Source of the DNA: Sulfurospirillum sp. UBA6790
GTDB lineage: Bacteria; Campylobacterota; Campylobacteria; Campylobacterales; Sulfurospirillaceae
Reading direction: 5' to 3'
DNA: 9,898 bases
Assembly: GCA_002452855.1 (NCBI GenBank)
Contig: DKFS01000094.1
Location: 1 to 9,898 of the forward strand
Positions 413 through 4,268 of this stretch are shown piece after piece. Both the position numbers and the translations under genes were made by a program. Within the stretch, counting starts at the first letter, position 1. Every line of letters begins with the position of its first letter. Below the pieces are notes generated by a model. The model had not been told where the DNA came from and ran no database searches. It was given only the letters and a program-made list of their open reading frames with translations.

Positions 413-597
413 TTAATGGATGCGAAATTGTTTTAACTCGATATTGGCACTTTCAGCTTTTAGGGAAAGATGTTTTGATATCTCTTCAACATTTTCGCCT
501 AAGGTGTTATTTTGTTCTGAAAGAAGCGTTACTTCATCAATATGCTGTTGAAATGTCTCAACGGTTTGCGGATTATATGATGTTGAGACGTTTGTTG
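413..597 (-). pseudogene. Out-of-frame C-terminal tail of the chemoreceptor
   Basis: Read one base back from the receptor frame, the minus strand from about 595 to the TAA at 413-415 encodes [20 protein letters not shown], then [20 protein letters not shown] and KHLSLKAESANIELKQFRIH. It has the regular hydrophobic spacing of the descending coiled-coil helix of MCP signalling domains and continues smoothly from ISEQ in the main frame. In this frame a TGA at 599-601 blocks reading from upstream, so the frame change must lie below 599 and above the main-frame stop at 529. The most natural join is in the GAGCAACAAACG stretch (600-589), where one missing A would restore SEQTNVS. No long homopolymer or classical -1 slippery heptamer is present. 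It could be a real mutation or a sequencing error. Confidence 0.85.
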
Positions 598-2397
598 CTC
601 AGAAATCTGTACGGTATGGCTTAGTTTATTAGACGTGTGATTGGATTGGTCGATGAGTGTCGTTGCTTCTTGCGAGAGATGATAAAACGATTGTGAAATT
701 GTTTCCGTTTCGGTTGTAACCGTATGAATCGTTTGTACGATCACATTGGTCATAGCGCTAATTTCAAGCAGCGAGCTTTGTGTCCGTTCGGCCAATTTTC
801 GTACTTCATCCGCAACCACGGCAAACCCTCGTCCATGCTCTCCCGCGCGTGCTGCTTCTATGGCCGCATTGAGCGCTAAAAGATTGGTTTGGTCGGCAAT
901 ATCGCCAATGATTTCGAGAACACCTTTTATTTGTATGGCTTGCTTTGATAATGAATCGACTTGCTCTCCTAAATCATGCTGTTTTTGCGCTCCTTGTGAA
1001 ATCATCGAGACAACTTTACTCATATTGGCAACAAAGGATTCAAGTGTTTTTTTTGTTTCTTGTAAGTCAAGCGTTGTTGTAGAAGACATCTGTTGCATGG
1101 TATTTTCTTTCTCTTTCAGTGATGCCATCTCGTGTTGGATTGAATGAATAAAATGATTTTGTTTGGTGATGTTTTGGGCTAAATTGGATGAGACGTTTCC
1201 TAAACTAGCACTGGCTTCCACGCTTTGATTGGAAGAATCAATGGCTTTGGTAATCGCCATACGAAAGTTATGAATGAGTTTTTGAACTTGCCCTAAGGTG
1301 TCTGAAATCTCGTTGTCTCGGTTGAGTTCGAGTGAAAGTGTCAAATCAAGATTTGAGGCGATGGTTTCTAGTTTCTTTTGTGATAATTGAATAGTTTGAA
1401 TAATATCTTTAAACGTGGCATACAATAAAATCATCACAAACAACGTTACAAGAAATAAGCCACCGCTGTGAAGGGTCATATTGTATTTTGTGTCGTTATG
1501 CAGAGTATCTAACGCTGCTAAAACCTCTTTGGAAAGGGCATCATCCACCTCTTTTAAAAGATTGATTTTTTGAGTGATTGTGTCAAACCAATAGGTGGCA
1601 TCAACACCAAAATCACCGCTTTGCGCTTTTTCAATAGCAATATTGCGCATTTTTTCTACGTCGGCAACAATAGGGGATTGCATAGTTTTTTCATATAAAT
1701 TTGTAGCCGTAAGAGATGCTGTTCCTATAAAAGAGTCAATATAGGAGCTTTGTTCCGATATGAGTGTAATAAGTTTTTCAAACATATGCGGTGCAAATTT
1801 TCCTGCGGCAAAAGTATTGGATAGTACGGCTCTTTCGATCCCTGAACGCTCTTTTGCTTTTAAAAAATTGGCATAGGCGGAGAGTTGTTTAACGATTTCA
1901 TGGTTAGAGGAAAGAACGGCGGTTGATGCCACAATGTCTAAGAGGTGTTTATTAAGGAGTGTGTAATAGTTCACTTCATCTTGGGCACTGATTTGCAAGG
2001 TATCGACGCGTTTACGTATGGAAGGCAATTCTTTTAATAGGGTATCGATTTTTGCGATTTTATCAAGAAGGGACTTAGAATAATTTGCTTTTTCTAGGGA
2101 AATGAGTGCATTTTGATAGCCGCGTTGGTATTGGTCAGTCAATGCACGCTGCGGTGGAAGTTTATCGGCAAATTTTTTACCCGAAGAGCCTAAAAAGCCA
2201 GCACTTGCACCTCTTTCTTTTTGTGTCTCATGAACAAAAAGGCTGATACTGGTTGAGAGTTGAACCAGTGATTGGAGTTGATCGAGTTCATTAAGTTGCT
2301 CTTTCCCATCATAAAGTGATTTGAACCCTAAAGCGAGTGCTGCAGTAATAACAATAAAAGAGACTAAAGCTAATTGTAGTTTAATGGTGCGTCGCAT
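529..2397 (-). CDS. Methyl-accepting chemotaxis protein with NIT sensor domain, C-terminus frameshifted
   Basis: This is a membrane chemoreceptor that would signal through CheW/CheA. Counting from the ATG at 2397, residues 7-26 form membrane helix 1. The sensor follows, with a NIT-domain signature ([16 protein letters not shown], about 56-71); NIT domains sense nitrate or nitrite in known cases. Membrane helix 2 is at about 312-329, then a HAMP-like linker, then the signalling hairpin with [20 protein letters not shown] (about 502-521). The last ~21 residues of the open frame ([10 protein letters not shown]..., stop at 529-531) do not resemble a receptor tail; the expected tail lies in the next frame down to 413. 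A one-base loss near 592-597 would explain this, giving about 661 residues when restored. The start at 2397 is preferred over the in-frame ATG at 2460: it has AAAGGGA upstream, begins MRRTIKLQ directly before helix 1, and a promoter lies between the two. Confidence 0.9.
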
Positions 2398-2424
2398 CTG
2401 TATTCCCTTTTGGTAATTTTCTAT

Positions 2425-2454
2425 ATTATCCCAAGGATAGAAGGCAAAATGCAA
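2425..2454 (-). promoter_or_regulatory. Candidate sigma-70 promoter for the chemoreceptor
   Basis: On the minus strand TTGCAT (plus 2449-2454) is followed after 18 bases by GATAAT (plus 2425-2430). A start about 7 bases further on would give a leader of about 20 bases containing AAAGGGA before the ATG at 2397. The position lies between the upstream gene's terminator and the receptor gene, so the receptor is probably its own transcription unit. It is a match by eye only. Confidence 0.45.
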
Positions 2455-2471
2455 TGACATAAGTCAAAGAA

Positions 2472-2514: not shown

Positions 2515-2943
2515 TTAAGAAAGTTTGGCGGTTGTGGTGTATTCTCCGTGAATATTACATTTAGAGATAGCCGTTACCATTTTGACCTCTTTAGCATTGA
2601 CTCTAGCGGCCAGATACCCACGTGAAATGACGGGCTCTAACGCAACACTGGCGATTTTTTTACCATCAGCTAAAAGGTCAATTTCGTAAATCCAATGCTT
2701 CTCCTCGCTTGGGTGGAGAATACCTTTTTGTCCAATATTGACTTCTACTAACGCATATCCTTTTGCGTCTGTTGCACCAATAGTGATTTCAGGAGAGTGT
2801 TTGAGTTCTGCTTCTGTGGGATTTGCAGGATCTTTGATCGAGACCATTTGTTTATTGACGATGAGTTTTGAGTCGTATGCTGATGCATAGGTGGTAGCTA
2901 AAGCTGCAAGCGCAGCAACTTTTAAGGCGTCTCTTCGTTTCAT
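2515..2943 (-). CDS. Tat-type exported class II superoxide reductase (neelaredoxin/desulfoferrodoxin iron domain)
   Basis: This 142-residue protein matches the mononuclear-iron domain of superoxide reductases, which reduce superoxide to peroxide without making oxygen. All five expected iron ligands can be assigned: His49 (KHSPEI), His77 and His83 (LHPSEEKHWI, spacing 6), Cys129 and His132 (CNIHGEY). Lys48 before His49 matches the conserved Lys that helps draw in superoxide. There is no N-terminal rubredoxin-like Cys4 centre, so it is class II, not desulfoferrodoxin. The N-terminus MKRRDALK plus a hydrophobic Ala-rich stretch and AxA site (Ala20-Ser21-Ala22) looks like a short twin-arginine signal, implying a periplasmic, pre-folded protein; this is inferred. 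AAGGAG six bases before the ATG supports the start. It is divergent from the NiSOD gene, and the two may share control. A SoxY-like role was considered but the SoxY GGC tail is absent. Confidence 0.88.
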   Translation of the reverse strand: MKRRDALKVAALAALATTYASAYDSKLIVNKQMVSIKDPANPTEAELKHSPEITIGATDAKGYALVEVNIGQKGILHPSEEKHWIYEIDLLADGKKIASVALEPVISRGYLAARVNAKEVKMVTAISKCNIHGEYTTTAKLS

Positions 2944-3057
2944 GTTGTCTCCTTAGAATCAAAAGATAAAATTAATTGTATATTAAAATGTTAAATATTT
3001 GTTTAATAATAAAGAGTAAAATGAAAGCCATAAAACCAACAATCATAAGGAGGAGAA
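2944..3057. promoter_or_regulatory. Divergent control region between superoxide reductase and NiSOD genes
   Basis: This 114-bp, very AT-rich spacer must hold the promoters of both genes. On the minus strand TACAAT (plus 2975-2980) is a fair -10 giving a leader of about 24 bases. On the plus strand TAATAA (3004-3009) or TAAAAT (3017-3022) could be the NiSOD -10; I cannot choose. An inverted repeat TTAAT-N5-ATTAA (2972-2986) overlaps the minus-strand -10, and TTAAA-N6-TTTAA (2991-3006) lies next to it. These could be operator sites for a stress or metal regulator, but short AT-rich repeats arise readily by chance. The NiSOD start is preceded by a near-ideal AAGGAGGAG (3048-3056). Confidence 0.5.
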
Positions 3058-3534
3058 ATGAAACAGTTATCCCAGTTTTTTACCCCTGAAATAGCACATG
3101 CGCATTGTGATATTCCGTGTGGTATTTATGATCCTATTGTTGCTCAAATTGCAGCGCTAAGTGTGGTTCGTATGGTCGATCAGATTACAGCTTTACCTGT
3201 GAGCAATGATGCTCAATATTTTAATACACTAAGCCGCTATATCGCCGTTAAAGAGAGCGAAGCCGTAAAGTGTAAAGAAGAAATCCGTGTGATTTGGGGT
3301 GATTTTATTAAGCCAGCCCATGTTGAAAAATACCCAAATATTCATACCCTCGTACATACGATTATGGGGTTGGGTGGGGCAGCTAAACAACATGTTTCTC
3401 GTGAAAAAGCGATGGCTTTATTGGATGCGGTGAATGAATTTGCGGCTATTTTCTGGGAAATTAAAGGTGTTGCAACCAAAAAGGCAAAAGCGCCTTACTT
3501 ACCGAATGAGGAGTTGGTGTATCCTATCCTATGA
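3058..3534 (+). CDS. sodN: Nickel superoxide dismutase precursor (NiSOD)
   Basis: NiSOD converts two superoxide to oxygen and peroxide in the cytoplasm, as a hexamer of four-helix bundles in known cases. The diagnostic nickel hook HCDIPCGIYDP starts at His16; after removal of the 15-residue leader (MKQLSQFFTPEIAHA) His16 becomes His1, Cys17 Cys2 and Cys21 Cys6, the nickel ligands. Family landmarks follow: SRYIAVKESEA (59-69), IWGDFIKPAHVEKYPNIH (79-96) and IFWEIKG (131-137). The precursor is 158 residues, mature 143, longer than the ~117 of Streptomyces and closer to the cyanobacterial and marine bacterial type, with a C-terminal extension of about 20 residues after IFWEIKG. The leader is not a Sec or Tat signal, so the enzyme should stay in the cytosol. 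Start is fixed by a strong AAGGAGGAG. The stop overlaps the start of the peptidase gene, so the two are translationally coupled. Confidence 0.96.
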   Translation: MKQLSQFFTPEIAHAHCDIPCGIYDPIVAQIAALSVVRMVDQITALPVSNDAQYFNTLSRYIAVKESEAVKCKEEIRVIWGDFIKPAHVEKYPNIHTLVHTIMGLGGAAKQHVSREKAMALLDAVNEFAAIFWEIKGVATKKAKAPYLPNEELVYPIL

Positions 3535-3800
3535 TGAAGATTTTTAAAGTTGAGGGTGATTCCATGTACCCTCTTGCAAAGGAAGGCGATTGGATAATCG
3601 CCTTTCGACCACTGTCATTAAAGCTAGGTGATTTGGTCCTGTTTTATTATGAGGGTGTGGGTATGATGCTTAAACAGATTACTCGCATTGAAAAAAAAGG
3701 TATTTTTGTCGAAGGCAAAGATGCCATGAGTGTTGATAGTCGAGTGTTTGGCTTGATAGACGCTCGCAAAATTGATTATAAAGTTTGGAAGATTTTTTAA
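3531..3800 (+). CDS. sodX: NiSOD maturation peptidase SodX (S24/S26-type signal-peptidase fold)
   Basis: This 89-residue protein is a minimal Ser/Lys peptidase of the signal peptidase/LexA class. Ser11 in EGDSMYP is the expected nucleophile, Lys48 in MLKQITRI the general base, and EGKDAMSVDSRVFGLI (61-76) matches the conserved box E of signal peptidases (D-S-R-x-x-G). No membrane helix is present, unlike LepB, so it should act in the cytosol. Its placement right after sodN, overlapping by ATGA, identifies it as the peptidase that removes the 15-residue leader to expose His1 of NiSOD. The start could be either of two adjacent ATGs (3531 or 3534); the nearest purine-rich sequence (GAGGAG, 3508-3513) is too far away, so translation probably depends on coupling. 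Confidence 0.93.
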   Translation: MMKIFKVEGDSMYPLAKEGDWIIAFRPLSLKLGDLVLFYYEGVGMMLKQITRIEKKGIFVEGKDAMSVDSRVFGLIDARKIDYKVWKIF

Positions 3801-3801
3801 A

Positions 3802-3833
3802 TTACATGTAAAGCTTTGAGACTTTACATGTAA
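3802..3833. terminator. 32-bp inverted repeat between convergent genes, likely bidirectional terminator
   Basis: TTACATGTAAAG (3802-3813) and its exact complement CTTTACATGTAA (3822-3833) form a perfect 12-bp stem with an 8-base loop, placed in the 39-bp gap between the stops of sodX (plus) and mscL (minus). The position argues for a shared terminator. The tails are poor: AAGATTTTA on the plus strand and TTTAAAAAATC on the minus strand. Each arm also contains the self-complementary decamer TTACATGTAA, with centres 22 bp apart, so a protein-binding function is also possible. Confidence 0.6.
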
Positions 3834-3839
3834 AAGATT

Positions 3840-4268
3840 TTATGCTTGCTCAATGCCACAATAAGGACATTTTTTAGCGGCAACTGGAATGCTCATCGCA
3901 CACTCTGGGCATGCTTTTGTCGTAGGTGCTGCTACCTCTTTTGGCATGATTTTTGTGTATGCTTTTATCATCATAAACATCACAAATCCCAAAATAATAA
4001 ACGAGGTTAAATCATTAAAAAAGACACCGAGTTTAATGGCGGGCGCTCCTGCTTTTTCCAAATCGGCTAAGGATGCATACGTTTTGCCATCAAGCGCGAT
4101 AAACAAAGAAGAAAAATCAACATTTCCCAGTAATAATCCAATAGGAGGCATAATGACATTGGAAACAAGGGATTTTACGATGGTCGCAAATGCCGCACCA
4201 AAAATAAAACCAACCGCCATATCAACAACATTGCCTTTAATCAAAAAATTGCGAAACTCTTTTAACAT
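3840..4268 (-). CDS. mscL: Large-conductance mechanosensitive channel MscL with C-terminal zinc ribbon
   Basis: MscL is a homopentameric inner-membrane pore that opens under membrane tension to release solutes during osmotic downshock. The N-terminus KEFRNFLIKGNVVDMAVGFI (3-22) is the family signature, leading into the pore helix (about 13-43, with the PPIG end). A periplasmic loop of about 35 residues follows, then helix 2 (about 80-106, GVFFNDLTSFIILGF). At 142 residues the length is normal, but the usual C-terminal amphipathic helix bundle is replaced by a likely zinc ribbon with Cys120, Cys123, Cys134 and Cys137 (ACPECAMSIPVAAKKCPYCG). The start has AAGGAG six bases upstream. It is the last gene of the ribA-GNAT-mscL run, 12 bp after the acetyltransferase stop, with the ribosome binding site in that gap. 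Function is firm; the role of the tail is unknown. Confidence 0.96.
   Translation of the reverse strand: MLKEFRNFLIKGNVVDMAVGFIFGAAFATIVKSLVSNVIMPPIGLLLGNVDFSSLFIALDGKTYASLADLEKAGAPAIKLGVFFNDLTSFIILGFVMFMMIKAYTKIMPKEVAAPTTKACPECAMSIPVAAKKCPYCGIEQA

Follow-up and report, generated by a model that had tools for sequence, protein, structure and literature searches.

The window, that is the whole stretch of 9,898 nucleotides analysed here, probably carries a nickel superoxide dismutase gene with a protease gene (sodN-sodX) in place of the iron superoxide dismutase gene sodB, in a Sulfurospirillum slot for superoxide reductase (SOR) and superoxide dismutase (SOD) located between mscL and the chemoreceptor/gidB genes, as read from the sequence of the window. 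The basis for this is the identity of the genes, the conserved ligands and nickel hook, the synteny, the presence of the iron SOD (FeSOD) in the slot of relatives and a SOR promoter block in the spacer. The window belongs to a relative of Sulfurospirillum, since the nearest named relatives found via the flanking genes are of this genus, and its flanking-gene proteins show 88% identity with those of S. diekertiae (locus L008) over 1387 columns. Its gene content is gidB (cut), a NIT-domain chemoreceptor gene, SOR, sodN, sodX, mscL, a GNAT acetyltransferase gene, ribA (GTP cyclohydrolase II), hemB, argF, a DUF2603 gene, hemN and an iron-sulfur protein gene (cut), hemB, argF and hemN being putative names. 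The first-pass annotation had described SOR and a nickel SOD (NiSOD)-SodX cassette on either side of a short divergent spacer, and this layout was confirmed with intact open reading frames, sodX overlapping sodN by 4 bp.

Table 1 Positions in the window of the SOR-SOD locus and of its borders.
Feature	Position	Strand	Basis
NIT-domain chemoreceptor, SOR-side neighbour	529-2460	-	profile match, synteny
SOR, Tat-like leader (TAT-SOR)	2515-2943	-	PF01880, invariant ligands, AlphaFold model
Divergent spacer, 114 bp	2944-3057	.	ORF coordinates
Conserved SOR promoter block	2969-3020 (limits approximate)	-	alignment vs shuffles, core pattern
24-bp core of SOR promoter block	2973-2996	-	
NiSOD precursor (sodN)	3058-3534	+	PF09055, TIGR02753, alignment to solved NiSOD chains
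SodX-like S24/S26 leader peptidase	3531-3800	+	PF00717 and PF10502 above cut-off
Inverted repeat, 12 bp perfect, probable terminator	3802-3833	.	between sodX and mscL
mscL, outer border of SOD slot	3840-4268	-	PF01741, synteny

The SOR protein, which starts with the leader MKRRDALK...ASA, matched PF01880 (2.5e-13, 50.9 bits versus a Pfam cut-off of 22.2) and scored 38.8 under the NCBIfam TIGR00332 domain cut-off of 61.9. In an alignment of 25 rows, the window and 24 relatives, the five candidate iron ligands H49, H77, H83, C129 and H132 were invariant and R3/R4 of the leader were at least 90% conserved, in line with the earlier description of five intact ligands and a Tat-like signal. In alignments with PDB sequences, the HP...H and CN.H residues of desulfoferrodoxins fell on H77, H83, C129 and H132. 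For H49, a weak alignment (i-Evalue 4.1) gave the KH of A. fulgidus neelaredoxin as counterpart and the 1vzg alignment a Leu, and the role of this residue as an iron ligand is suggested mainly by its invariance. As for the Glu-Lys-His loop, K48-H49 are present, L47 aligns with residue 12 of A. fulgidus SOR and the invariant E46 is located one residue before; the aligned chain is a mutant, and from the mutant names we take residue 12 to be Glu12 in the wild type. The AlphaFold model had a pLDDT of 89.4 and its structure matches at ranks 1 to 20 (9.4e-7 to 9.5e-5) were all SORs or putative SORs, one of them titled hypothetical protein PH1083. SoxY/SoxZ chains appeared at ranks 21 and below, from 1.8e-4, and together with the bit score under the NCBIfam cut-off and the Leu facing Glu12 they would suit a SoxY/SoxZ-like periplasmic protein with a similar fold, an iron protein or sulfur carrier and not a SOR; this is highly improbable given the five invariant candidate ligands and the nature of the 20 best structure matches. 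TatC was found in 21/21 relatives carrying SOR, and export via Tat, predicted from the leader and from this co-occurrence, is plausible. Relatives of the SOR were also present in Bacteroidales, Saprospiraceae and Chlorobi MAGs (L040, L043, L045-L048, L050, L051 and others), which suggests transfer between phyla.

The NiSOD matched PF09055 with 157.3 bits (3.6e-46), exceeded the NCBIfam sodN equivalog cut-off (TIGR02753, 157.1 bits versus 90) and aligned to solved NiSOD chains. Its 15-residue leader MKQLSQFFTPEIAHA is followed by the hook HCDIPCGIYDP, of the HCxxPCGxY type. Residues 137-158 form a conserved C-terminal extension of about 20 residues (Y.P.E..V.P) past the part aligned with the solved chains. 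The SodX protein passed the Pfam S24 and S26 cut-offs (PF00717, PF10502) and, with 31.4 bits versus 63.25, missed that of the NCBIfam NiSOD maturation protease TIGR02754. A SodX relative was located directly 3' of NiSOD in all seven other NiSOD loci read (8/8 including the window), and the Ser of G-x-S and one Lys, which we take to be the catalytic Ser-Lys dyad, were conserved in the eight aligned sequences. We call the protein SodX-like, from its position and from these two residues, and make no claim of formal equivalog membership. The hook, the leader and the matching peptidase of the first description were thus all recovered, the peptidase through Pfam and below the TIGR02754 cut-off.

The gene order hemN-DUF2603-argF-hemB-ribA-GNAT-mscL-[SOD]-SOR-MCP-gidB was common to the window, S. 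cavolei UCH003 (L006) and UBA4058 (L005), the latter two also matching the window at the FeS gene before hemN. The bracket contains sodN-sodX in the window and, in L005 and L006, an FeSOD gene (sodB) divergent from SOR. The order is unchanged in S. diekertiae, where FeSOD shares the strand of SOR and two chemoreceptor frames lie on the opposite one. In L003 and L012, FeSOD and SOR follow GNAT or ribA, a match to mscL not being detected there, and L009 shows FeSOD, SOR and gidB. The slot is empty in L001 (G001) and L002 (G002), where mscL is directly followed by SOR. At this place beside SOR, relatives thus carry sodB or nothing and the window carries sodN-sodX. The chemoreceptor that adjoins SOR, with its NIT domain of the nitrate/nitrite-sensing type, is also found in L005 and L006, and the MscL of the window ends in a zinc-ribbon-like extension at its C-terminus (above the cut-off for UPF0547 and under it for DZR).

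We then set this arrangement against the 44 genomes of the S. diekertiae family (strong SOR matches being those with E at most 1e-40), of which 21 have SOR, 4 NiSOD and 23 FeSOD. Ten of the 21 with SOR have FeSOD as its direct neighbour, in divergent orientation in six (G003, G005, G006, G009, G012, G049) and on the same strand with SOR downstream in four (G008, G044, G047, G050); these ten are not independent, some such as G008 and G044 being near-identical at the SOR locus. G007 has both FeSOD and SOR on different contigs. SOR-SOD adjacency therefore recurs in the family, with two unrelated SOD families, iron and nickel. The first-pass annotation had proposed to look for the SOR-NiSOD adjacency in relatives, with rarity counting against its reading of the locus. 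Taken literally this adjacency is rare, as NiSOD was beside SOR at none of the 75 other SOR loci from a scan in which each species was represented by one genome, within the flanking sequence available for each locus (1 kb or more on each side in 52/75), but the place beside SOR is taken by FeSOD in the ten genomes above. A unique SOR-NiSOD module as the main story was dropped, the slot holding FeSOD in relatives.

In the family, the four NiSOD genomes are all without FeSOD and all carry SOR, which lies on a different contig from NiSOD. Among three NiSOD genomes outside the family list, G344 and G364 are without FeSOD and G022 has both enzymes, FeSOD being missing from 6/7 of the NiSOD genomes checked; absences are here absences from assemblies, whose genome completeness was not given. 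A phylum sample of 397 genomes gave four with NiSOD and 32 with SOR (E at most 1e-15), one of the latter with two in-frame stops; this is a partial match at G085:C1:1343603-1343827, with two in-frame TAA codons, and is apparently a decayed copy. NiSOD had been presented as unusual for Campylobacterota, and it is indeed rare by both counts, 4/397 and 4/44; it is nevertheless already in print for S. arcachonense (PMC4794192) and was also found in Arcobacter- and Sulfurovum-labelled proteins among the best 120 of 3631 matches.

The direction of the change was considered on a tree of concatenated flanking-gene proteins with 10 rows, four of which have under half of the columns filled. The window was located at an unresolved fork with the FeSOD-bearing L003, L008 and L009. 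By parsimony on this tree FeSOD is the likeliest ancestral occupant of the slot, and iron to nickel the likeliest direction. The empty slot of L001 and L002, with mscL then SOR and neither FeSOD nor NiSOD matched in either genome, means that the cassette may have entered after the loss of sodB; sodN-sodX would then have been gained by a slot already emptied, with no direct swap and with an accidental closeness to SOR. We consider this unlikely, as L001 and L002 group with the FeSOD-bearing L012 (support 98/95 and 97/99) and not with the window, so that their empty slot would be a separate loss, and as both genomes are MAGs that may be incomplete. The replacement of sodB by sodN-sodX remains the preferred reading.

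The age of the nickel occupant was approached with a quick NiSOD tree of 69 rows (61 of the best 120 of 3631 matches, seven loci and the window). The window NiSOD fell in a six-row clade with P0104-P0108 (SH-aLRT 99). Four of these five proteins are on contigs of exactly the same size as a SOR-match contig (5924, 5110, 10369 and 6618), compared with 0.02 coincidences expected and a maximum of 1 when sizes were jittered up to 10%. Over all pairs of 102 SOR and the best 120 of 3631 NiSOD matches there were eight size coincidences versus a null mean of 0.96 and a maximum of 6, and only the four among the five nearest NiSODs were used. The identical sizes indicate that SOR and NiSOD are probably on one contig in four further lineages; this is drawn from contig sizes and does not imply adjacency. 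The SOR-NiSOD arrangement may be older than the split of those lineages from the window. The other Sulfurospirillaceae NiSODs were scattered, those of S. arcachonense and G016 falling within the larger clade that contains the window (SH-aLRT 93), that of G018 with Poseidonibacter and that of G015 elsewhere on a long branch, a pattern consistent with several acquisitions.

We also compared the spacer with those of relatives. A block of it aligned with the SOR upstream regions of 9/20 relatives above shuffled sequences (at most 2/200 shuffles reaching the score) and, by eye, exhibited in relatives a T-rich stretch, a TTAAA-N3-TTTAA-like inverted repeat and a TATAAT-like -10. The block occurs with FeSOD alongside (L091, L101), in genomes that have NiSOD at another site (L089, L100, L102) and where neither FeSOD nor NiSOD was found (L087, L088, L095, L103). 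Since it is present with or without a neighbouring SOD, it corresponds to the promoter region of SOR itself. Its 24-bp core occurred at the start of SOR in 7 of the 10 genomes scanned, with eight matches in total, one of them elsewhere and none at sodN, the reversed control giving three; as the pattern was taken from one such SOR promoter, the matches at SOR are partly by construction, and the informative outcome is that other sites are lacking. These counts gave no support to a shared SOD/SOR regulon. Scans with promoter patterns were at chance, with 5 found versus 4.0 expected. CosR, whose 21-bp C. jejuni consensus (PMC3139631) is AT-rich, was considered as a candidate regulator, and we make no claim for it. 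When the window spacer was compared with six divergent FeSOD spacers, L091 and L101 were well above shuffles (0/200), whereas for L092, L094, L096 and L099 the score was reached by 137, 40, 54 and 4 of 200 shuffles.

At the other border, the gap between sodX and mscL contains an inverted repeat with the arms TTACATGTAAAG/CTTTACATGTAA, a probable terminator, and a similar ACATGTAA hairpin was seen by eye between sodB and mscL in L005 and L006. Both borders of the slot are thus partly common to the window and some of its relatives, in keeping with an exchange of the coding portion. The 12-mer TTTACATGTAAA was found in the window and in 29/123 loci, some of which overlap each other, and could represent a terminator arm or an operator that is common in Sulfurospirillum. 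The spacer beside the exported SOR could even act as a fixed regulatory socket, in which the cytosolic SOD gene is exchanged between the iron and nickel families or lost while SOR, the promoter block and the outer terminator stay, so that the metal would be swapped under the same control; we put this forward as a tentative and rather doubtful proposal.

The layout would allow SOR and NiSOD to be co-regulated, and a functional two-compartment module, with both genes controlled from the common spacer and their adjacency selected, would be compatible with the slot swap. The close divergent spacing, the recurrence of SOR beside SODs of two unrelated families and the same-contig signal in four further lineages would fit such a module. 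Several results do not: the promoter block is located above SOR genes with no SOD in the flanks examined (L089, L095, L100, L102 and L103, with 657 bp upstream for L095), it was not evident by eye upstream of seven NiSOD genes located elsewhere, the other family genomes with both SOR and NiSOD have them on different contigs (4/4), and 4/10 SOR-FeSOD pairs are on the same strand. We regard this module as a possibility that is somewhat less probable than its absence, and retain the exchange of sodB for sodN-sodX as the main reading.

The SOR would be made as a Tat precursor and exported folded, and in the periplasm it would reduce superoxide to hydrogen peroxide using electrons from a donor. The NiSOD would be synthesised with its 15-residue leader, SodX would trim it and expose the His1-Cys2-Cys6 nickel hook, and the trimmed enzyme would dismutate superoxide in the cytosol, a possible benefit being a cytosolic dismutation that needs no iron. 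Leader processing is known for NiSOD as a family. The reductase outside and dismutase inside of the first-pass annotation are therefore plausible as compartments, in view of the Tat-like leader and of TatC in 21/21 relatives, but this picture is incomplete, since in 16 of these 21 relatives SOR is accompanied by another strong PF01880 gene (over 70 bits; open frames of 130-158 residues), which probably codes for a putative cytosolic desulfoferrodoxin.

TAT-SOR is a named class in SORGOdb, with seven predicted members and examples in Desulfovibrio, Desulfuromonas and Geobacter (PMC3116461). The window SOR likewise has a SOR active site behind a twin-arginine leader, whereas its clade is campylobacterotal. 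Closer to it, Sulfurimonas pluma, also of the Campylobacterota, has a periplasmic SOR labelled TAT-SOR and proposed as a periplasmic superoxide scavenger; this organism has reportedly lost its SODs, in contrast with the SOD next to SOR in the window (PMC10066037). Eleven Sulfurospirillum genomes were described with SOD and superoxide reductase, the SOD being a nickel enzyme in S. arcachonense and an iron enzyme in the others (PMC4794192), and the S. multivorans SOD SMUL_0529 was reported as 3.1-7.4-fold more abundant in PCE samples (PMC4585668). The S. arcachonense NiSOD (L004/G004), from the same genus or family, resembles that of the window by its hook motif, its leader and its adjacent SodX, but it is located on another contig than SOR, whereas the window NiSOD is in the sodB slot. 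The FeSOD-SOR pair of S. cavolei UCH003 shares the slot, the divergent layout and the flanking genes with the window, its slot being occupied by an iron SOD of an unrelated family and that of the window by NiSOD and a protease. Our literature search found no report of SOR-SOD adjacency or of a slot swap, which does not prove the absence of one, and SOD terms had no relevant mention in PMC11406935 and PMC13209400.

The layout given in the first-pass annotation is thus confirmed, and its interpretation holds in part. The enzymes are of known kinds, and what is new is their apparent exchange at a conserved slot. The locus shows a SOR-SOD adjacency that recurs in the family, where the enzymes are ordinary and their arrangement is informative. 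Both kinds occur in named species, the iron SOD next to SOR in S. cavolei and S. diekertiae and the nickel SOD at another genomic site in S. arcachonense, so that metal dependence and co-regulation are directly testable in Sulfurospirillum. An in-place replacement of an iron SOD by a nickel SOD and its protease, beside a conserved partner, represents a natural experiment on the metal used for superoxide defence.
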